Source of the DNA: Paenibacillaceae bacterium
GTDB lineage: Bacteria; Bacillota; Clostridia; Lachnospirales; Lachnospiraceae
Assembly: GCA_015057705.1 (NCBI GenBank)
Contig: SVDU01000004.1
Span: 1-64,000, forward strand
DNA length: 64,000 nucleotides
Direction of reading: 5' to 3'
In this document: positions 4,453 through 36,450 of the stretch, piece after piece
Numbering within the stretch: position 1 is the first letter of the stretch
Layout of the letters: each line of letters starts with the position of its first letter
The notes under the pieces: generated by a model
What the model saw: the letters and a program-made list of their open reading frames with translations, nothing else
Database searches by the model: none
What the model was told of the DNA's origin: nothing
Program-made: the position numbers and the translations under genes

Positions 4453-4899
4453 GTGAAAAAACTTAATTCTCAAAAGGTATTTGTACAATATCGGGATATA
4501 ATGGAACCATACGGGCCTGTAAAGGGCAGATTATATACGATTACACATTCAGATATAACCGCAGAACTGTTTGTGTTTGTAGCCCCTGAGTATGCAGATG
4601 ATCAATTTACCAAAATGCATGATGAGGTGAAAATTGCCTGGGAATTATATAATGAAGGAATTGCTTTAATTGGCTCTGTGATTGTTGATGGTGAGGGTGT
4701 AACCGGAGATCCATCCATAAGAAATAAGATATTCTATAACGAAATGCCTACAGCACTTCAGGCATTACGCCAGGCTGACAGATTTTTGTTTGACAAAGAA
4801 CCTGATCTGGATCAGGCACCAGTGTATATTCAATTTATCTCAGGCAATCCTGAATATAACAAAACATATGATTTTGGAGTTATTGGTATGTATCAGTGA
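4453..4899 (+). CDS. staygreen (SGR) family protein
   Basis: The protein of about 148 residues matches the staygreen domain known from plant Mg-dechelatases and their bacterial homologues. It has the hallmark run YTITHSDITAEL near the N-terminus, then a DEVKIAW segment equivalent to the DEV-AEW helix, and a GSVIVDGEG strand. In plants the enzyme removes Mg2+ from chlorophyll a. Bacterial homologues exist in non-photosynthetic species, where the natural substrate is unclear. AAAGAGG at 4438-4444 lies 8 bases before GTG 4453, so this start is preferred over ATG 4423. The gene stands alone between two terminators. Confidence 0.8.
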   Translation: MKKLNSQKVFVQYRDIMEPYGPVKGRLYTITHSDITAELFVFVAPEYADDQFTKMHDEVKIAWELYNEGIALIGSVIVDGEGVTGDPSIRNKIFYNEMPTALQALRQADRFLFDKEPDLDQAPVYIQFISGNPEYNKTYDFGVIGMYQ

Positions 4900-4935
4900 A
4901 AATCAGCGGTGATGTTTGATCTACCGGCTAAAATC

Positions 4936-4978
4936 GGGGCTGGAGCACTAAGTAATCTAGTGCGACAGCCCCTTTCTT
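4936..4978 (+). terminator. Rho-independent terminator after the staygreen gene
   Basis: GGGGCTG (4936-4942) pairs with CAGCCCC (4966-4972), with an inner stem GCACTA/TAGTGC, followed by TTTCTT. It lies between two converging genes and may also slow transcription from the right. Confidence 0.85.
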
Positions 4979-4999
4979 AAACACCCTCTGGGTTAATAG

Positions 5000-5767
5000 T
5001 TATTTTTCTACTTTTATATTATCCAAAATAAATGATTTATCTTCATTGATTACAACATCAGCTTTTATGGTCCCAATATATTGTGGTGTAACAATATTAG
5101 TGAAATAAGCTTCCATTCCTAAAGTTATATTTACTCCACTGTCAAAAGAAAATGATACATTGTTACCATAATAAATTTTTTCAAAATTCCAATTTGAATC
5201 ATTAAAGCTTTTAAGATCAATGTCATATAAATCTTTCTTATTGATAATTATATCTAAAACATTGTCACTCTGTAATTTGTAGTTAATTGCTTCATTTAAC
5301 TGTTTTTTATAATTATCCGCTGAAAAATTCATAATATTTAAAGAGTTCTTAGAGTCCTGGTAAAAACCATATAAATCCTCAATATACACTTCAGATCCAG
5401 ATTCAGTATTAAAAGAGCATAATATAATATCCTGTTGACCAATTTGAATTACTTTTAATTTAGGAAGAACAAACATTGGTGTCATATATTTGATGTCATA
5501 TTTTTTTAACTCATTTCCATATCTGACAATTATACCTTTATAATGATCAGTATTATCATTTATGCCATATACATAAAAATTCTTTTCTGGAATTTCAGCT
5601 AATAAAGGAAATTTAGATTTTTTAAATGTATCTTCATTTGTAATATTCTTATCTAATTTGTCAATATTTATTTTTTTACTTGCTTGATGTTTGCTTAAAT
5701 ATAATATGGCTATTCCAGCTAATATAACTGCTATTCCAAAATAAATATACTTTCTTTTACCGTTCAT
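5000..5767 (-). CDS. hypothetical membrane-anchored protein, AT-rich
   Basis: The 255-residue product has a short basic N-terminus, one hydrophobic segment (about residues 8-25, IYFGIAVILAGIAILYL) and then a long polar, Lys/Asn/Asp-rich outer part without cysteine pairs or a lipobox. It is probably an N-terminally anchored extracytoplasmic protein. I recognise no domain. Base composition is clearly more AT-rich than its neighbours and codons for Ile, Asn and Lys dominate, which suggests acquisition from elsewhere. GGGAG precedes the ATG. It has its own near-consensus promoter and points away from the helicase gene. Confidence 0.75.
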   Translation of the reverse strand: MNGKRKYIYFGIAVILAGIAILYLSKHQASKKINIDKLDKNITNEDTFKKSKFPLLAEIPEKNFYVYGINDNTDHYKGIIVRYGNELKKYDIKYMTPMFVLPKLKVIQIGQQDIILCSFNTESGSEVYIEDLYGFYQDSKNSLNIMNFSADNYKKQLNEAINYKLQSDNVLDIIINKKDLYDIDLKSFNDSNWNFEKIYYGNNVSFSFDSGVNITLGMEAYFTNIVTPQYIGTIKADVVINEDKSFILDNIKVEK

Positions 5768-5797
5768 ACTTATTTTCTCCCAAATATTTTAACTACT

Positions 5798-5826
5798 ATA
5801 ATAGTTTACAGATAAAATTTTGTCAA
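5798..5826 (-). promoter_or_regulatory. promoter of the AT-rich hypothetical gene
   Basis: On the minus strand TTGACA (5826-5821) is followed after exactly 17 bases by TATTAT (5803-5798). This is a near-consensus sigma-A promoter about 31 bases ahead of the start codon at 5767. Confidence 0.75.
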
Positions 5827-5836
5827 CTCATGACAA
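5820..5836. promoter_or_regulatory. inverted repeat between divergent promoters
   Basis: TTGTCA-N5-TGACAA forms a perfect 6-base dyad that covers the -35 box of the minus-strand promoter and lies just upstream of the -35 of the plus-strand promoter. It is a possible operator; no cognate regulator is evident nearby. Confidence 0.35.
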
Positions 5837-5847
5837 ATAATAATAAA

Positions 5848-5876
5848 TTGACAGGTAACGTACCATTATCTATAAT
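5848..5876 (+). promoter_or_regulatory. consensus sigma-A promoter of the Lhr-type helicase
   Basis: TTGACA (5848-5853), 17 bases, TATAAT (5871-5876): both boxes and the spacer match consensus exactly. The spacer contains the small dyad GGTA-ACG-TACC. The start codon of the helicase is 40 bases downstream. Confidence 0.85.
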
Positions 5877-5916
5877 AAAGAGATACACTTGTGAAATATA
5901 AAAAGCGGAGGCGTCT

Positions 5917-8900
5917 ATGTCAGATCATTCCATAGAACTTTTTCAAATAGATACCAGACACTGGTTTGAACGTGCACTGGGAACCCCTACCCTGGTTCAG
6001 AAACAGGCATGGCCTGAAATTGCAGCAGGCAGGCATACGCTTGTTTCCGCCCCTACCGGAACGGGTAAGACTCTGACGGCGTTTTTGATATTTCTTGACA
6101 GGCTTTTAAACGAAGCAGAAAGGGGTGAGTTAAAACAGGAACTGCAGCTGATTTATATCTCTCCTTTAAAATCCCTGGCTGTTGACATCAGGGAAAATCT
6201 CCGCCGGCCCCTGGAAGGAATTGTGGAGGAGAGAAAAAAGTCAGGGAATTATAACGGTCAGGAGCTTTTCGTGGGGATCCGAACCGGTGATACCACACAA
6301 AAAGAGCGGAATCAGATGATTAAAAAACCTCCTCACATTCTCATAACAACTCCGGAATCGCTCTATCTGATGCTGACCAGTAAATCAGGACAAAAAATCT
6401 TAAAGACAGCAAAAGCACTGATTATCGATGAGCTGCATGTGATGATTGACACCAAAAGAGGAGCCCATTTAATGCTTTCTGCAGCCAGACTGGACAAGCT
6501 TTGCAGTAAGCCTTTGCAACGGATCGGATTGTCCGCTACCATTGAACCTCTTGAGCTTGCAGCAAACTACCTGGCTCCCGGAGAGGTTTCCGTTGTGGCG
6601 CCTAAGATGAACAAGGAGATCCGGATCGAAATAAAAAGTCCATTTTCAGATAAAGGCATTCAGAGTAAGGACTCTGTCTGGAAAGACATTGCAAAAACCA
6701 TATACTCTTATATGGGAGGAACAGGCAGTTCTCTGGCATTTGTGGAAGGACGGGCATATGCAGAAAAGCTTGCCCACTTTATTAACGAGTTAGGCGGAGA
6801 AGGATTTGCCCGCACCCATCACGGGAGCTTATCCAAGGATCAGCGTTTTGAAGTGGAGCAGGCACTGCGTGATGGTTCTTTGAAACTTCTTTGTACCACT
6901 TCCTCCATGGAACTTGGAATTGACGTAGGGGAAATCAAACAGGTATTTCAGGTTGGCTGCCCCCGTTCTGTCTCCAGCACCATGCAGCGGCTGGGCCGCG
7001 CCGGGCATAATCCCGGGCGTGTCAGCGTCATGTATATGTTTCCCAGAGAGGCTTCGGAAGGCTTATTTTGCGGATTTACTGCAGAAGCGGCCAGAAGCGG
7101 GAAGATAGAAAATGCCAGACCGCCCAGACTTTGCCTGGATGTACTTGCCCAGCATCTGGTATCCATGGCATGCACCCAGGAATATGGGTTGGAAGATGTG
7201 ATGGATATTTTAGCCGGAGCCTATCCTTTTTATGAGGTAACGGCAGAGGATGTGAAAGGTGTTTTGCGAATGCTTGCAGGTGATTATGAGCATGAACGGG
7301 ATATTCCGGTAAGACCCCGGATTATTTACGACCGGATTCATAATCGGATCAGCGGAGATGCTTACAGCCGTATGCTGGCAGTCAGTGCAGGTGGAACCAT
7401 TCCTGACAGAGGCCTTTACACAGTCCGGTCAGAAAGCGGAGTCAGGCTGGGAGAACTTGATGAGGAGTTTGTCTTTGAAAGCAGAATCGGGGACCGGTTT
7501 TTACTTGGTACTTTCGCATGGCAGATTGTGAGTATCATGCGGGATACAGTGATCGTATCACAGGCAAATACTTCCGGCGCCAGGCTTCCCTTCTGGCATG
7601 GAGATATTAAGGGGCGAAAACTTGGAACCGGACTTGTATTCGGTGAGATTTTCCGCAGATTCAATGAGTCCGGCAGTTCAGAAGCTTTATATAAAGAATT
7701 AACAAAGCTTGGTTTAGATGAAGTGACAGGAGAGCGTGCCCTTGATTTTCTGCTCAGTCAGCAAAAAAGCACGGGAATCCTCCCAGATGACAGAACCATA
7801 CTGGTGGAGCACTTTATGGATGAAAACAGCAATCATCAGATGATGGTTCACTCTGTGTTTGGACGTCAGATCAATGAACCTCTGTCTCTTCTTGTGACTG
7901 AAGCAGCAAAACTTCATATGGATACTACCATTAACTGCACGGCAGATGATGATGGTTTTTTATTGTTTCCTTATGATGGAACCCCTTTACCTGATGGACT
8001 TATTTATGAAGTATCTCCTCAGAAAGCAGATGCCATTGTGGCTGCATTACTTCCGGTCACCCCTTTATTTAACATGAATTTCCGTTACAATGCCGCCAGG
8101 GCACTTCTTATGGGAGTAAGAAATCAAAAGCGTCAGCCCCTCTGGATTCAGCGAATGAAAAGCGCACAGATGCTGTCTGGCCTGGTAAAAGAGGACACCC
8201 ATCCCATACTAAGGGAGACAAAACGGGAATGTCTGGAGGACTTTTGGGATTTAAAGGGACTGCAATCTGTTTTATATGAGATACAATCAGGAAACATCCA
8301 GATACGGGAAATGTACTTGGAGACACCTTCCCCCATGTCACTGCCTTTAAGGCGCCAGACAGAAGCTTCCATGATGTATGATTATGCTCCCACGCCCCAG
8401 AGCATCCATGAGACGGTAAAGGAGGCGGTTCATGAGGCAGCTAAAATCACCCCCGAGCCTGAGCATCTGGCTCGTGTTTCCCAGAGAATGCATCTTCCGG
8501 AAGATGAGGAACAGCTTCATACACTTCTTATGATAGAAGGTGATATGGAAGCAGGAGAACTTGATATTCCCATTGAATGGCTGGAGTCCCTGGCTTTAAA
8601 AGGAAGGGCACTCTACGTAGAACCCGGTTTATGGATTGCGGCAGAACATGCCGATGAATATGAAAATGCTCTGATTAAGGGACAGAAAAATGGGGGAAAA
8701 CGTCTTGTTCAAAGAATGCTTAAATATCGGGGAGCAAAATCTTTAGAACAGACAGCTGAACGGTATCTGTGGTCAGAGGAAAAGGCACTTGATATTTTAA
8801 CTTCTTTGTGTGACCAGAAAAAAGTAATTTTACAGGATGGAGTTTATTATCACGCAGACCTTTATGACAGAGCCAGAAATGAGACTATTAAAAGCAGAAG

Positions 8901-30617: not shown

Positions 30618-31553
30618 ATGAAAATAGACAGGCTTATTGCAATTATCATGATTCTTTTGGAACGGAAGAAAGTAACCGCAAAATATCTGGCAGAGATGTT
30701 TGAAGTTTCCATGCGGACGATATACAGGGATTTAGATGTAATTAATCAGGCAGGAATTCCGGTCTTTGCCACCTCAGGACCGGGCGGCGGTGTTGAAATC
30801 ATGAAAGAATTTAAAGTGGAAAAACGAATCTTCTCTGCAAATGATATAAACGCACTTCTGATGGGATTATCCAGTATTAAAAATAATCTGCCTGGGGAAC
30901 AGACCATGGCAGCGTTGGCAAAAGTAAAGGGAATGATTCCAATAGAACATCATAAGGAGTGGGAATATCGTGCATATCAGATGAAAATAGATGCATTACC
31001 CTGGTTCAATGCCGGAAATTTATTTTCCACAGTAGAGATAATACAAGAAGCATTAAATCAGCAAAGGCTTCTCACATTCCAATACCGGGATATCAGAGAT
31101 AAAAAAAGCAGCAGAGAAGTAGAACCCTATCGTCTTTTATGGAAGGGAGAGGCATGGTATCTTCAGGGTTATTGTCTGTCACGAAGGGATTTTCGTACGT
31201 TTAAACTGTTAAGGATGAGCGATCTGCTAATATCAGATCAGCAATTTGAAATCCGGGATTTCCCCATGGAACGGTTGGATGAGATGCAGGCTAGAGAAAA
31301 TACACTAACAAGGGTAAAACTAAGGATTCAGGAAGGAGTAAGGGATTTAGTTATAACGCGTTTTGGGGAAGACTGTCTTACTCCCGATGGTCCGGATCAT
31401 TATATAGCCGAACTGCATATGCCTGTGGATGATCTGGCCTGTGGCTATCTGCTTGGCATGGGAACCAGATGTGTATGTCTGGAGCCGGAGGAAATGCGGG
31501 AAAAGATGAGACAGCTTTCTTCAGAGATCTGTGGATTTTACCAATCTTCATAA
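30618..31553 (+). CDS. YafY-type regulator (HTH_11 plus WYL domain)
   Basis: The 311-residue regulator has an N-terminal winged helix (residues 1-60, LIAIIMILLERKKVTAKYLAEMF then TIYRDLDVINQAGIPV) and a WYL domain in the second half (LLTFQYRDIRDKKSSREVEPYRL then WYLQGYCLSR). A WYL C-terminal extension follows. WYL domains bind small ligands or nucleic acid. The position next to the perfect 18-base dyad suggests autoregulation and control of the divergent DJ-1 gene. Confidence 0.88.
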   Translation: MKIDRLIAIIMILLERKKVTAKYLAEMFEVSMRTIYRDLDVINQAGIPVFATSGPGGGVEIMKEFKVEKRIFSANDINALLMGLSSIKNNLPGEQTMAALAKVKGMIPIEHHKEWEYRAYQMKIDALPWFNAGNLFSTVEIIQEALNQQRLLTFQYRDIRDKKSSREVEPYRLLWKGEAWYLQGYCLSRRDFRTFKLLRMSDLLISDQQFEIRDFPMERLDEMQARENTLTRVKLRIQEGVRDLVITRFGEDCLTPDGPDHYIAELHMPVDDLACGYLLGMGTRCVCLEPEEMREKMRQLSSEICGFYQSS

Positions 31554-31638
31554 GCTTCTATGTCATAGCTTCTCGGCATATAGATAGGATGTACTTTTTT
31601 GAAACTGCAAAAGGCTATAAAACGAAAGGAGTGCATCC

Positions 31639-32649
31639 ATGATTGTATCGTGGCTGACAACCAATGAGTGTAATTTAAGATGCAGGCATTGTTACCAGGA
31701 TGCCGGAAGCAGAAAAACAAAAGAACTGACAACAGCAGAAGCAGAAAAGATGATCGGTGAAATCGCAAAGGCAGGATTTAAAATCATGATTTTCAGTGGG
31801 GGAGAGCCACTGATGCGGCCGGATATTTATCATTTGGTATCCCATGCGTCAAAAGCCGGGCTAAGGCCGGTCTTTGGAACCAATGGGACACTTTTGACGG
31901 AAGAAACGGCGAGAAAGTTAAAAGACTGCGGTGCTGCAGCCATGGGAATCAGCGTGGATAGTTTAAATGAAGAAAAGCATAATGATTTCAGAGGCTGCTC
32001 CGATGCATTCCGCTTAACCATGGAAGGAATTGAAAACTGCAAAAAAGTGGGACTGCCATTTCAGATCCATACCACAGTTCTGGACTGGAATCAGGCGGAA
32101 GTAAGCCAGATCATTGATTTTAGTGTAAATGTGGGAGCCGTGGCAAACTACATATTTTTTCTCATTCCGGTGGGGAGAGGAAAATTTCTGGAAGACACTT
32201 CCTTGCAGGTTATGGAATATGAAGCACTATTAAAAACCATTATGGAGAAACAGAAAAATGTACCCATTGATATAAAGCCCACCTGTGCGCCTCAATTTGT
32301 CCGTGTGGCAAAGGAACTGGAGGTTCAGACTCGTTTTAAAAAGGGCTGCCTTGCCGGCTTGTCTTATTGTGTGATTACTCCGGAGGGGCTGGTAAGACCT
32401 TGTGCATATATGACGGAAATTGCAGGAGATGTCCGGGAGGAATCATTTGATAAAATCTGGTGTAAAAGCAGTGTGTTTAAAAAGTTAAGAAGCAGGGAGT
32501 ATAAGGGCACCTGCAGTACATGCATTTACAAAGAAGACTGCGGTGGCTGCAGGGCAAGAGCCGGATATTACCACGACGGTGACTATATGGCAGAGGACAG
32601 TTACTGTGGGTTTGGAACCAGGTGGAAGGAGGGACTTCCTGCAAAATGA
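31639..32649 (+). CDS. radical SAM/SPASM protein resembling AhbD/NirJ of haem biosynthesis
   Basis: The 336-residue enzyme has the radical SAM 4Fe-4S motif CNLRCRHC (Cys11, Cys15, Cys18), the SAM-binding GGEP motif, and a C-terminal SPASM region with cysteines in LVRPCAYM, CSTCIYKEDCGGCRARAGYY and a final DSYC. The pieces IKPTCAPQFVRVAKE and GCLAGLSYC are very like AhbD and NirJ, which modify iron-porphyrin side chains. Its stop overlaps the start of a FecB-type lipoprotein gene (ATGA). The operon therefore links a porphyrin-type radical enzyme with an importer. The exact substrate is inferred only. Confidence 0.8.
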   Translation: MIVSWLTTNECNLRCRHCYQDAGSRKTKELTTAEAEKMIGEIAKAGFKIMIFSGGEPLMRPDIYHLVSHASKAGLRPVFGTNGTLLTEETARKLKDCGAAAMGISVDSLNEEKHNDFRGCSDAFRLTMEGIENCKKVGLPFQIHTTVLDWNQAEVSQIIDFSVNVGAVANYIFFLIPVGRGKFLEDTSLQVMEYEALLKTIMEKQKNVPIDIKPTCAPQFVRVAKELEVQTRFKKGCLAGLSYCVITPEGLVRPCAYMTEIAGDVREESFDKIWCKSSVFKKLRSREYKGTCSTCIYKEDCGGCRARAGYYHDGDYMAEDSYCGFGTRWKEGLPAK

Positions 32650-33602
32650 ATTTCCGTTTGCTGAAAATAACGATAATAATTACGATACTTACTTCCTTCA
32701 TATCTGGATGCGCAGCTCGGACTGTGGCTGAAGCCAGAAATGAGGCAGATGATCAGACCGGGTATTATCAATTTACGGATGCCTTAGGACAGGAGATTCG
32801 GGTGAAAAATCCCAAACGTGTTGTTGCGCTCATGGGAAGCTTTGCGGATACCTGGCAAAAAGCAGGGGGAGAGCTATGCGGAGTGACCGATGATGCATTT
32901 GATGAAAGAGGTCTTGAACTTCCTGACAACGTGATCTCTGTGGGGATGTACAACAGCCCTAATCTGGAGACGATCATTGGGCTGAATCCTGATCTCGTCA
33001 TATTGTCGTCTGAGACGAAAGAGCACACAGCTTTAAAGGAAGCGTTGAAACAGGCAGGAATTACAGCTGCCTATTTTCATGTGACTTACTTTGAGGATTA
33101 TCTTTCCATGCTGCGAATCTGCACGGATATTACTGGAAGAGAGGATTTATATAAGAAAAATGGATTGGAGACAAAGCAGCAGATTGAAACTGTGATCAAT
33201 AAGAATATCCCGGAAAGTTCTCCAAGAGTTCTTTTTCTTATCACCTATTCCGGCGGTGTCGTGGCTAAAAATTCTGAATGCATGACAGGAAAAATGTTGA
33301 AAGACTTAGGCTGCATCAATCTGGCAGATGAAAACAAAAGTCTGTTAAAAGAATTTACCATGGAAGCTATCCTGAAAGAAGACCCGGATTATATTTTTGT
33401 TGTTCCTATGGGTAATGATGATGCGCAGGCAAATAAAAATCTAAAAGAGAGTATCGAGAAAAATCCGGCGTGGAATGGTTTGAAAGCAGTTCAGAATCAG
33501 CATTATATCCTTCTTCCCAAAGAGAAGTTTTTATATAAGCCCAATGAGAAATGGGGGGAGAGCTATGTTTACCTTTCTGAAATTCTCTGCGGCACCAGAT
33601 AA
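32646..33602 (+). CDS. FecB/BtuF-type ABC substrate-binding lipoprotein
   Basis: The protein of about 318 residues has a lipoprotein signal with lipobox FISGC (Cys22). The binding domain has YYQFTDALGQEIRVKNPKRV, an LNPDLVILSSE segment and a C-terminal lobe. These are typical of periplasmic-binding proteins for iron-siderophore, haem or cobalamin. AGGAGGG precedes ATG 32646. The overlap with the radical SAM stop means translational coupling. The ligand could be a tetrapyrrole or a metallophore. Confidence 0.87.
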   Translation: MNFRLLKITIIITILTSFISGCAARTVAEARNEADDQTGYYQFTDALGQEIRVKNPKRVVALMGSFADTWQKAGGELCGVTDDAFDERGLELPDNVISVGMYNSPNLETIIGLNPDLVILSSETKEHTALKEALKQAGITAAYFHVTYFEDYLSMLRICTDITGREDLYKKNGLETKQQIETVINKNIPESSPRVLFLITYSGGVVAKNSECMTGKMLKDLGCINLADENKSLLKEFTMEAILKEDPDYIFVVPMGNDDAQANKNLKESIEKNPAWNGLKAVQNQHYILLPKEKFLYKPNEKWGESYVYLSEILCGTR

Positions 33603-34593
33603 GAAGGGCTATTTGTTTCTGTTGATTTCTTTTACTTTTCTTATTGTTTCTGCTTTGCTTGGATTATTTTCCGGTGCCAGCTTTATTCCGCCCTCTGTGA
33701 TATTTGAGGTTATATGTTCCGGCAGAACGCAGGACCCTGTTTACCGTATTTTTATGACTGTGCGGCTGCCGCGGGTCTTGGGAGCACTGCTTGCAGGAAG
33801 TGGTCTTGCTGTTTCCGGATCAATTCTTCAGACGGTGTTTCATAATCCGCTGGCAAGTCCCAATATCATAGGTGTCAATGCAGGGGCAGGACTGTTTGTG
33901 CTGATCTGTTCTATTTTTTTTCCAGGTGCCCATGACCTGATACCTTTTGCTGCATTTTTAGGAGCGCTTCTTGCATCGGTTCTGATTCTGCTTATTGCGA
34001 TGACCAGCCGGATGTCGCAGTTATTGCTTGTTCTGTCCGGATTTGTGATCAACAGTCTGTTTACAGCCGGAATGAATGCAGTGCTGATATTGTTTCCCGA
34101 TGCTTATGTAGGCGCGGGTAACTTTCTGGCAGGAGGTCTTTCCGGGGTTACTACGGATCGGCTGATTTATCCCACTTTTGCCATACTGGGAGGGATTTTG
34201 CTTTCTTTCTGCTGTGCAAAAGTTTTAAATCATCTGGGGCTTGGCACAGAACGTGCCGGTGCTTTAGGAATGAATGTACCTGTGATCAGATGCCTGGCAA
34301 TCGCCATCGCTGCGGCATTGGCGGGTGCAGCTGTAAGCTTTGCAGGGCTCATTGGTTTTGTGGGTCTTATTATTCCTCATGGAGTGAAGCTTTTAATCGG
34401 TACGGATAACCGCTTCGTATTACCCGGCAGCGCACTTCTTGGCGGAATGTTTGTTATATTATGTGATTTTTTTGCACGGACGTTATTTATTCCTTATGAA
34501 CTTCCGGTAGGGATCCTGTTGTCTATTGTGGGCTGCCCATTCTTTCTTTATCTGATTTTGAAAAACAGAAACAGGAGGGATTTGGAATGTTAA
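33565..34593 (+). CDS. FecCD-family ABC permease
   Basis: The protein of about 342 residues has some nine to ten membrane helices. Family motifs are RLPRVLGALLAGSGLAVSG, QTVFHNPLASPNIIGVNAGA and the ATPase-contact loop ending in LIGFVGLIIPH. ATG 33565, behind GGGGGGAG, is preferred. The gene overlaps the lipoprotein gene by 38 bases. It forms the homodimeric channel of the importer. Confidence 0.9.
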   Translation: MFTFLKFSAAPDKKGYLFLLISFTFLIVSALLGLFSGASFIPPSVIFEVICSGRTQDPVYRIFMTVRLPRVLGALLAGSGLAVSGSILQTVFHNPLASPNIIGVNAGAGLFVLICSIFFPGAHDLIPFAAFLGALLASVLILLIAMTSRMSQLLLVLSGFVINSLFTAGMNAVLILFPDAYVGAGNFLAGGLSGVTTDRLIYPTFAILGGILLSFCCAKVLNHLGLGTERAGALGMNVPVIRCLAIAIAAALAGAAVSFAGLIGFVGLIIPHGVKLLIGTDNRFVLPGSALLGGMFVILCDFFARTLFIPYELPVGILLSIVGCPFFLYLILKNRNRRDLEC

Positions 34594-35375
34594 AAATGGA
34601 GGGGGTTTCTTATTCTTATCATAAAAACAGACCGGTTATCACAAATCTGGATTTAGAAATAGAGGATGGGAAGATAACTACAATCGCCGGTCCAAATGGC
34701 TGCGGAAAGAGTACGGTCTTAAAGCTGGCTTCCCACCTGCTGAAACCCCAGGCTGGCGAAATTTTTTTAGGCGAAAAAAATCTCTCTCATATGAGTAAGA
34801 GAGCGGTGGCGAGAGAAGTATCGATGCTCTTTCAGAATAGCCAGATCCCGGATATGACCGCTCTGCGAGCAGTAATGGCCGCAAGATATCCCTACCAGTC
34901 TTCTTTTTCCGGCTATACAAAAGAAGAGGAAGAGATGAGCGAATGTGCCATGGAACTGACTGGCTGCAAAGAGTTTCGGCATAAAAATATGGCAGAGCTT
35001 TCGGGCGGTGAGCGGCAGAGAGTGTTTCTTGCAATGATTTACAATCAGGATACTCCCCTGATTCTTCTTGATGAACCGACTATCTATCTGGACATTCATG
35101 TTACCTACGAAATAATGGAGCTGATACGAAACCTGAACAAAAATCGAAAAAAAACCATAGTGATGGTGCTTCATGATCTAAATCTGGCTCTTCAGTATTC
35201 TGATTCTATTGTCTTAATGAATCATGGCAGTATTTTTAACCTCCATACACCAGGTGATGAGCGTATTTTAGAAAGCATCAAATCTCTTTTTGGCATAGAA
35301 GTTCGCAATTTCAGAGATAGCCAGAATTCTTTTTATTGCTTTGCCCAATCTATTGATAAAGATATTATCGTATAG
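34587..35375 (+). CDS. FecE-type ABC ATPase
   Basis: The 262-residue ATPase has Walker A GPNGCGKST, a Q-loop near MLFQNSQIPD, signature LSGGERQR, Walker B LILLDEPTIYLD and MVLHDLNLALQ with the switch histidine. It overlaps the permease gene by 7 bases and completes the radical SAM, FecB, FecCD, FecE operon. Confidence 0.9.
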   Translation: MLKMEGVSYSYHKNRPVITNLDLEIEDGKITTIAGPNGCGKSTVLKLASHLLKPQAGEIFLGEKNLSHMSKRAVAREVSMLFQNSQIPDMTALRAVMAARYPYQSSFSGYTKEEEEMSECAMELTGCKEFRHKNMAELSGGERQRVFLAMIYNQDTPLILLDEPTIYLDIHVTYEIMELIRNLNKNRKKTIVMVLHDLNLALQYSDSIVLMNHGSIFNLHTPGDERILESIKSLFGIEVRNFRDSQNSFYCFAQSIDKDIIV

Positions 35376-35410: not shown

Positions 35411-36107
35411 CACACCAATGTTCTCGGATTGCTTAACCAGCATTTTCTGGATAGTCCCTATTCCCTTTCAGAAGTGCGGATCCTTCATGAGATCGAAAAA
35501 ACAGAACAATGTACAGCCAGCATGCTGGCGGATATGCTTTCCATGGATGTGGGGTACTCAAGCCGGATATTAAAAAAGTTTCAAAAGTCCGGATTGATTG
35601 AGAAAAAACAGTCTGCAGAAGACAGACGTTCTCAATATCTTACTGTAACCATTTGGAAAGGAAAATCAGGACCAGTTTAATGACCGATCTGACCAACAGA
35701 TAGAAAAGCTGGTGGAGACCCTTCCTGAGGAAGAGATTAAGGTGCTGGCACGGAACATGACTTCCATTGAAACCATATTGACAAAAGGGAAAAATATCAG
35801 GCGCAGTGATATTAAGATTCGTAATGATGTAAGACCAGGGGATGCAGGCTATCTTACTTATTTACATGGCTGGATTTACAAAAAGGAATACGATTATTCT
35901 GTGGCGTTTGAGGGATATGTTGCAGAATCCTTTTATCAGTTTCTGGTCCAGTATAATCCGGAGAAAGACAGGCTCTGGTGTGCAGAGCATGAGGGAGAGA
36001 TCGTGGGCTGCATCGGTATCGTCGGTCATGGCGGGATGATTTGCTGGGGCTGGAATTCGAATTGGAGATATAAACCTGAAATTATTTTAATACAATATAA
36101 TAATTGA
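35411..36107 (+). pseudogene. decayed MarR-GNAT fusion gene
   Basis: The first part (from about 35411) encodes TNVLGLLNQHFLDSPYSL and a MarR winged helix up to DRRSQYLTVT, with the normal N-terminus missing. Near 35655 the reading frame shifts by one: reading on in the next frame gives GKENQDQFNDRSDQQIEKL and joins the linker VETLPEEEI. A GNAT acetyltransferase start follows (RNDVRPGDAGYLTYLHGWIY) and breaks off after CIGIVGHG near 36030, replaced by unrelated sequence. The gene is thus truncated at both ends and frameshifted. The intact family couples a MarR regulator to a GNAT acetyltransferase. Confidence 0.8.
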
Positions 36108-36129: not shown

Positions 36130-36450
36130 ATGAATTATGATGGAATCATCATTGGCATAGGGACATTTCTGATTATCGGACTGCTGCATCCGGTTGTAAT
36201 TAAGGCAGAGTATTATTTTACTACTAAAATATGGCCCTTGTTTCTGATATTTGGACTTTTGTGCTTTGGAATTTCTCTTGTGTCTCCTTCTTCCACGGAA
36301 CGGTCTCTGTCAGCAGTCCTTGGTTGTTCTCTTTTGTGGAGTATAAAAGAAATTTTTGAGCAGAAGAAGAGAGTGGAAAAGGGCTGGTTCCCTGAAAATC
36401 CAAAAAGAAAAATATTCAAAGCTGCGGAACTGGGCGGGAAAGAAAAATAA
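36130..36450 (+). CDS. DUF4491 small membrane protein
   Basis: The 106-residue protein matches DUF4491. It has an N-terminal membrane helix (IIIGIGTFLIIGLLHPVVIK), the short EYYFTTKIWP motif, further hydrophobic segments (LFLIFGLLCFGISLV and LSAVLGCSLLWSIKEI), and a basic C-terminal tail WFPENPKRK. The function is unknown. AGAAGAGG precedes the ATG. Confidence 0.8.
   Translation: MNYDGIIIGIGTFLIIGLLHPVVIKAEYYFTTKIWPLFLIFGLLCFGISLVSPSSTERSLSAVLGCSLLWSIKEIFEQKKRVEKGWFPENPKRKIFKAAELGGKEK

Follow-up and report, generated by a model that had tools for sequence, protein, structure and literature searches.

Gene layout of the unit

We analyzed a window of 64,000 nucleotides (the whole stretch of DNA presented above) from contig 34 of a 4.53-Mb genome, labelled G000, and focused on positions 31639-35375, where a gene for a radical S-adenosylmethionine (SAM) protein with a SPASM domain precedes the genes of a FecBCD-type importer. 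An earlier note on this DNA had described four overlapping genes of this kind, and indeed four intact open reading frames (ORFs) lie there head to tail, with overlaps and with the families of their products over the respective cut-offs. We refer to these four genes as the unit:

31639..32649, + strand: radical SAM/SPASM protein of the TIGR04055 ('NirJ2') family, 336 amino acids, inferred AhbD-type haem synthase
32646..33602 (listed ORF from 32622), + strand: substrate-binding lipoprotein, FecB type (PF01497)
33565..34593 (listed ORF from 33544), + strand: FecCD-type permease (PF01032)
34587..35375, + strand: ATP-binding cassette (ABC) ATPase of the importer, FecE-like (PF00005)

The starts were judged by reading the gene junctions in the raw sequence. 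The radical SAM gene likely starts at ATG 31639, with AAAGGAG ahead of it. The likely start of the lipoprotein gene is ATG 32646, which is preceded by GGAAGGAGGG and forms a 4-base ATGA overlap with the stop of the radical SAM gene; the listed GTG at 32622 seems less likely. For the permease gene the likely start is ATG 33565 (GGGGGGAG ahead), giving a 38-base overlap with the lipoprotein gene, and for the ATPase gene ATG 34587 (AGGAGGG ahead), which overlaps the permease stop. Since the genes overlap and likely starts are present at the junctions, translational coupling across the four genes is likely. A tblastn search of the window with HemC, HemH, HemN, CysG, CobA-HemD, HemL, NirJ1, AhbA and AhbB queries revealed no second tetrapyrrole gene, which agrees with the statement of the earlier note that no haem pathway genes are near; the NirJ1 query matched only the radical SAM gene itself.

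Family and cysteine pattern of the radical SAM protein

The radical SAM protein, in which both PF04055 and PF13186 are over cut-off, scores 528.2 bits over 324 of 326 positions against TIGR04055, 'putative heme d1 biosynthesis radical SAM protein NirJ2' (cut-off 500). The next best family is TIGR04545 (AhbD) with 327 bits, below the cut-off of 500, and relatives from AhbA/B-bearing genomes (L157, L019 and L056) also reach only 338-373 bits against it. The scores of further families, among them TIGR04053 (239), NirJ1 (192), AhbC (183) and NirJ (156 bits), are also below cut-off. We rejected the identity with NirJ of haem d1 synthesis (156 bits against TIGR04051, cut-off 515) as well as with AhbC, which is instead resembled by NirJ1 proteins (528 bits in L056, 503 bits in L078).

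The full AhbD motif, as given in an excerpt of Fix et al. 2023 (PMC10452713), consists of CX3CX2C and the SPASM part CX20-33CX17CX36-37CX2CX5CX2CX17-35C. The protein from the window has CX3CX2C at C11/C15/C18 and the SPASM spacing C216-X20-C237-X17-C255-X36-C292-X2-C295-X5-C301-X2-C304-X18-C323, an exact fit to the published SPASM motif. All eleven cysteines, three of the radical SAM motif and eight of SPASM, are conserved without exception in the 98 aligned rows, some of which are near-copies. Among proteins longer than 300 amino acids, the SPASM motif fits 99 of the 101 radical SAM proteins of the set (about a third of these 101 are Fibrobacter near-copies) and none of the 29 NirJ1 proteins.

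The gene contexts of relatives are informative as well. The order NirJ1-NirJ2-AhbA-AhbB, with AhbA/B recognized by PF17805, is present in L078 and L080, and in the Fibrobacter locus L019 genes for CobA-HemD, CbiX-SirC and HemL stand beside the NirJ2 gene. Taken together, the sequence, the cysteine spacing and the gene context point to a radical SAM protein of the AhbD type. Given the scores, the motif, these contexts and NirJ1 being next best to AhbC, NirJ2 appears to take the place of AhbD, and the enzyme of the window would then work like AhbD, converting Fe-coproporphyrin III to haem b. The haem d1 label of TIGR04055 is probably misleading in annotation, because the contexts examined point to haem b and none looks like haem d1. 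Two further proteins, L173 and L174, are AhbD-type (38%) and not NirJ2, and both of their genomes encode AhbA/B.

A separate observation concerns a Paenibacillus polymyxa plasmid (L188, NZ_CP010270.1), in which two adjacent genes annotated as radical SAM proteins and one annotated as an AsnC family regulator occupy positions 4803-8010. The second of the two annotated radical SAM proteins is 43% identical to that of the window, and the genes are possibly a mobile AhbC-AhbD-AhbA/B cassette.

Conservation of the unit in two phyla

Homologues were sought in one genome per species (84,980 species), and the best 80 of 88 matches were compiled into 77 loci. Among these best 80 matches, the closest named relatives of the radical SAM gene are from Lacrimispora species (92-96% identical). 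Of 246 genomes from the window's order, 6 contain a match that passes the TIGR04055 cut-off, as do 19 of 197 from Coriobacteriia, the class to which Slackia belongs.

A survey of gene neighbourhoods, proposed as a check in the earlier note, revealed FecBCD genes following the radical SAM gene on the same strand in 38 loci. The Lacrimispora clade accounts for 16 of them, counting the window and some near-copies, and Coriobacteriia for the other 22, which are all the Coriobacteriia loci examined. A further 57 loci whose downstream sequence extends over 3.5 kb or more lack this arrangement; nine loci had too little sequence to judge the linkage. The conservation of the arrangement in two phyla speaks against chance.

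When 19 loci drawn from both phyla were compared all against all, single-linkage clusters of the radical SAM protein, the lipoprotein, the permease and the ATPase were common to all 19. Further clusters were mostly antisense ORFs, in addition to an upstream MerR regulator in seven Coriobacteriia loci and apparently a thiamin pyrophosphokinase in four.

We then consider the tree of the radical SAM proteins, from which most Fibrobacter near-copies, L082 and proteins shorter than 290 amino acids were left out. The linked Coriobacteriia form one group (22 rows, support 95/82). The Lacrimispora clade forms another (18 rows, three without FecBCD included, 100/99), some of whose rows may be the same species twice (the L009 and L081 proteins are identical). 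Fibrobacter is placed beside these two groups, and all 44 sequences together are supported by 100/99. An Actinomycetota bin (L063) has a NirJ1-NirJ2 pair and AhbA/B and no FecBCD. Another genome, G139 (L084), fits neither group, having a weak NirJ2 (382 bits), no AhbA/B and too little downstream sequence.

The importer

PF01497 (111 bits for the lipoprotein), PF01032 (273 bits for the permease) and PF00005 (105 bits for the ATPase) are all over cut-off, and the three genes overlap, as in a FecBCD-type (type II) ABC importer. The lipoprotein carries a lipobox-like SFISGC, and its predicted fold is that of metal-chelate binding proteins. Its best NCBIfam match is IsdE (TIGR03659), at 85 bits well under the cut-off of 298.65; that of the ATPase is NF008409 FecE (223 bits, cut-off 375). 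In the permease tree, computed without eight near-copies, the permeases of both phyla and one Subdoligranulum permease form a group, supported by 100/100, that excludes ten other FecCD proteins taken from plasmid records. At positions 8984-10957 of L054 (Lacrimispora xylanisolvens ASCUSBR21), lipoprotein and permease read as a single 657-residue frame.

Haem-pathway genes in unit-bearing genomes

AhbA/B (PF17805) have no match in the window's genome. They are absent from 15 of the 16 linked Lacrimispora-clade genomes and from 17 of the 22 linked Coriobacteriia (32 of 38 overall), and present in all 23 tested relatives that have no FecBCD beside the gene and 3.5 kb or more of sequence downstream; only four Fibrobacter genomes were tested for AhbA/B. 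Likewise, no second radical SAM protein at the level of NirJ1/AhbC was listed in the window's genome, where 8 of 16 first-look candidates were scored. In these searches, the radical SAM protein of the window thus did not show the co-occurrence with AhbA/B and AhbC in one genome that would be expected of AhbD.

HemB has one match in the window's genome, on the same contig at a distance of roughly 200 kb, and the 19 kb around it contain no other recognizable tetrapyrrole gene. All six tested unit-bearing genomes of the Lacrimispora clade have HemB. It is absent from 12 of the 22 unit-bearing Coriobacteriia; one of the twelve, G301, comprises 1.1 Mb only and may be incomplete. Some hosts would thus be devoid of any tetrapyrrole synthesis, since they are without HemB.

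Ferrochelatase is absent from all 24 tested genomes outside Coriobacteriia, the window's included, and present in all 22 unit-bearing Coriobacteriia. In G301 its gene (TIGR00109, 222 bits) directly follows the ATPase gene. A haem pathway elsewhere in the genome, considered in the earlier note as a possible explanation of the gene, was not found as far as its key parts AhbA/B, ferrochelatase and a NirJ1-level radical SAM protein are concerned; HemE, HemN and CgoN were not searched in the window's genome.

Genomes without the linked importer and genomes with full haem clusters

Three Lacrimispora-clade genomes keep the radical SAM gene without FecBCD beside it: L005 and L073 (L. amygdalina), and L007. 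Here the absence of the importer refers to the vicinity of the gene, as the rest of these genomes was not searched for FecBCD. L005 and L073 show different deletions relative to the window, with an 87-base lipoprotein remnant in L005. Their radical SAM genes remain under purifying selection (dN/dS 0.09-0.13 in pairs with either). AhbA/B are present in all three genomes versus 1 of 16 linked Lacrimispora-clade genomes (Fisher 0.004, relatedness not corrected). The L007 and L005 genomes contain a NirJ1-AhbA-AhbB operon and no NirJ2 in the 18-kb stretch examined around it, so the old radical SAM protein could serve as AhbD there.

One metagenome bin, G259 (L004), has both the importer and the AhbA/B cassette. 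Its 2.35-kb NirJ1-AhbA-AhbB cassette matches that of L. amygdalina at 92.7% (L152 versus L153), with no other match between the stretches, which suggests that either the cassette is mobile or the bin is mixed.

In five Coriobacteriia (G317, G425, G357, G296 and G462) the unit stands at the head of a haem cluster that also comprises SirC-like, HemC, CobA-HemD, NirJ1, HemB and AhbA/B genes, and HemL in three of them. No second AhbD-type gene was listed in these five genomes. Since the importer coexists with synthesis there, it is not merely a replacement.

Proposed salvage of a late haem precursor and its alternatives

We regard it as probable that the unit salvages a late haem precursor, combining porphyrin uptake with radical finishing. 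The earlier note had suggested that a possible salvage system takes up an external porphyrin and modifies it by radical chemistry, and comparative genomics supports that proposal. What the sequence itself shows is the gene order with its conservation, the family and cysteine pattern of the enzyme, and that the searched partner genes are missing; the ligand, its use and the reaction are our inference. The FecB-type lipoprotein would bind external coproporphyrin, in Lacrimispora most likely the iron complex (Fe-coproporphyrin III, coproheme), the permease and the ATPase would bring it into the cell, and the radical enzyme would finish coproheme to haem b. With import and the radical enzyme, a host could obtain haem without AhbA/B, AhbC or ferrochelatase. 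According to an excerpt of PMC11306076, AhbD takes hydrogen from the beta position of the propionate side chains and needs iron in its substrate, metal-free and zinc coproporphyrin being very poor substrates. Without ferrochelatase, a host would thus depend on import of the iron complex. In Coriobacteriia, metal-free coproporphyrin III could be imported and the iron inserted inside by ferrochelatase.

More broadly, we favour, on balance, the view of a dedicated coproheme/coproporphyrin salvage system: a portable four-gene unit in two phyla, serving hosts that have no haem pathway and live on the coproporphyrin of their neighbours, with the AhbA/B-AhbC cassette making the importer dispensable. 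The enzyme and transporter families are already known; what would be new is their use as a stand-alone salvage unit. No description of such a unit was found in the open-licence literature searched (titles, the starts of abstracts and the top of longer lists).

Three observations limit the case for salvage of coproporphyrin. In the fold comparison of the lipoprotein, siderophore and haem binders are about equal (HtsA 24.8, IsdE 24.5, 5joq 24.5 and CeuE 24.1) and give no clue to the ligand. A relative of the importer is found in a B12 operon, at positions 4896-9855 of L181 (OY725877.1, a record called Subdoligranulum variabile plasmid), together with genes for CbiB, a cobyric-acid-synthase-like protein and CbiC, behind which lie SirC and CobA-HemD. 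Finally, of 12 Coriobacteriia that lack a NirJ2, 7 also have ferrochelatase, which is therefore no specific partner of the unit.

The first two of these observations would fit an importer for a corrinoid or an iron chelate whose operon includes a stand-alone AhbD-type gene merely because both belong to tetrapyrrole or iron metabolism. We consider this unlikely, because the importer is linked to the same radical SAM protein in two phyla, is missing beside the gene in three genomes with AhbA/B and is directly followed by ferrochelatase in G301. Moreover, an AhbD-type enzyme without a source of substrate would presumably be pointless in the HemB-less Coriobacteriia. A riboswitch as a clue to such a ligand was found neither in the window, which has no Rfam element at gathering score, nor beside the unit in the seven loci scanned (L008, L012, L013, L014, L155, L156 and L158); there is none in L181 either.

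Alternatively, coproheme might be made internally, by HemB to HemE, an oxidase and an unknown chelatase, and finished by the radical SAM protein, with FecBCD supplying iron only. The presence of HemB in Lacrimispora genomes would be in line with this, as would a CgoN orthologue listed for Lacrimispora indolis in an excerpt of PMC10965808. Yet the lack of ferrochelatase in the genomes tested outside Coriobacteriia and the isolation of HemB from other recognizable tetrapyrrole genes make this scheme quite improbable, and it is inapplicable to the 12 HemB-less Coriobacteriia.

Very improbable, in our view, is import of haem or another tetrapyrrole combined with a changed function of the radical SAM protein, for example remodelling of haem side chains. 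Such a change would accord with the haem binder IsdE as the best, below-cut-off, NCBIfam match of the lipoprotein and with TIGR04055 being a family distinct from TIGR04545. However, the same clade (100/99) holds Fibrobacter and the five full-cluster Coriobacteriia, in which the gene occupies the AhbD slot, and the cysteine spacing is kept throughout.

A peptide maturase beside an unrelated importer, for which the SPASM domain and weak scores to maturase families might speak, was rejected with near certainty, since the mycofactocin maturase score is 135 bits against a cut-off of 265, the other maturase families shown are also far below cut-off, the 85 bases between the upstream regulator and the radical SAM gene (31554-31638) have no room for the precursor peptide gene that the earlier note had suggested looking for (no ORF fits, and downstream lie MarR and GNAT-like pieces), and the context of the relatives is that of haem genes.

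If salvage of coproporphyrin is the correct explanation, it has several implications. Genomes without a haem pathway are usually taken as needing ready-made haem; some of them, including Coriobacteriia encoding a cytochrome bd subunit, would depend instead on a precursor excreted by other microbes, so that haem auxotrophy would be of at least two kinds. The 'putative heme d1' label of NirJ2 would gain a testable function, a coproporphyrin importer family would be defined, and porphyrin cross-feeding would be directly testable with two purified proteins.

Relation to known systems

The protein of the window shares with AhbD of the siroheme-dependent pathway (Methanosarcina barkeri, sulfate reducers) the CX3CX2C motif and the eight-cysteine SPASM spacing, as well as the AhbD slot in the clusters of its relatives. 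It differs in its sub-cut-off AhbD score, in that no AhbA/B or NirJ1/AhbC-like gene was found in its genome and in its tie to an importer. With respect to TIGR04055, the protein is over the curated cut-off, and yet the family name says haem d1 where the contexts say haem b.

Haem importers of the IsdE, HmuTUV and ShuT types consist of a binding protein, a permease and an ATPase. The importer of the unit has the same architecture, and IsdE is both the best NCBIfam and a joint-best structural match of its lipoprotein; unlike in those systems, the lipoprotein is far below the IsdE cut-off and the partner is a haem-finishing enzyme.

Growth of the haem-dependent Leucobacter sp. ASN212 is helped by coproporphyrins released by a neighbour (cited in PMC6868719). 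The excerpt of PMC6868719 links neither a radical SAM enzyme nor a dedicated coproporphyrin importer to this cross-feeding; by analogy, the unit would be the radical-enzyme counterpart of such salvage. The HmuW locus of Fusobacterium, which acts in anaerobic haem degradation, also combines a radical SAM enzyme with a haem uptake operon in an anaerobe. However, according to an excerpt of PMC10404700, HmuW opens the ring and belongs to the class C radical SAM methyltransferases, whereas the enzyme of the window is of the SPASM haem synthase type.

Demand for haem

A homologue of CydA, a cytochrome bd subunit, is encoded in seven of eight tested HemB-less unit-bearing Coriobacteriia (39-46% identity), the eighth being G301. 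CydA, KatE, Hmp and NrfA have no match in the ten Lacrimispora-clade genomes tested, G000 included, whereas a Cyt-b5 domain protein is present in 11 of 12 genomes of this clade (30-44 bits). The demand for haem in Lacrimispora is therefore likely but weakly shown. In the window's genome, a Cyt-b5 lipoprotein-like gene lies directly behind what we take to be an RnfB-like gene (positions 399-2130 of L176, around G000:C34:193794-194003) and is followed by a gene for a 130-residue membrane protein that contains several histidines and lacks a Pfam match. These genes possibly encode an Rnf-linked cytochrome.

Neighbouring genes

Further features surround the unit:

30618..31553, + strand: WYL/HTH_11 regulator, upstream of the unit (PF13280, PF08279)
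35429..36107, + strand: a MarR piece (PF01047) and, in another frame, a GNAT-like piece
36130..36450, + strand: DUF4491 small protein, membership in the unit uncertain (PF14898, 135 bits)

The WYL regulator adjoins the unit only in part of Lacrimispora, among close relatives, and is a candidate link, not an established part of the unit. A DJ-1/PfpI protein is encoded upstream on the opposite strand. The MarR and GNAT-like pieces, the second of which has no Pfam match, are probably a broken gene outside the unit. Both have matches at the same place in close relatives, and the spacing of these matches fits a single frame in L003, L004, L005, L006 and L058; the break may therefore be recent.

The DUF4491 gene lies within the fetched flanks of L002, L005, L008, L010-L012, L054 and L073 and was not found in Coriobacteriia loci. 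It stays near the radical SAM gene even without FecBCD there (L005 and L073).

Two scans of the window gave results that we did not use. The promoter scan yielded 16 sites versus 13.6 in shuffles. Terminator-like sites numbered 15 versus 5.3 in shuffles, those on the + strand being inside genes and none after the ATPase gene.

Beside the radical SAM gene of L013, a divergent trio (4776-7791) encodes a DUF1858-solute-binding protein, a CobW-type GTPase and an ABC ATPase according to Pfam, and a trio of the same type is present in L007 (4725-7686), judged by the likeness of the listed ORFs.

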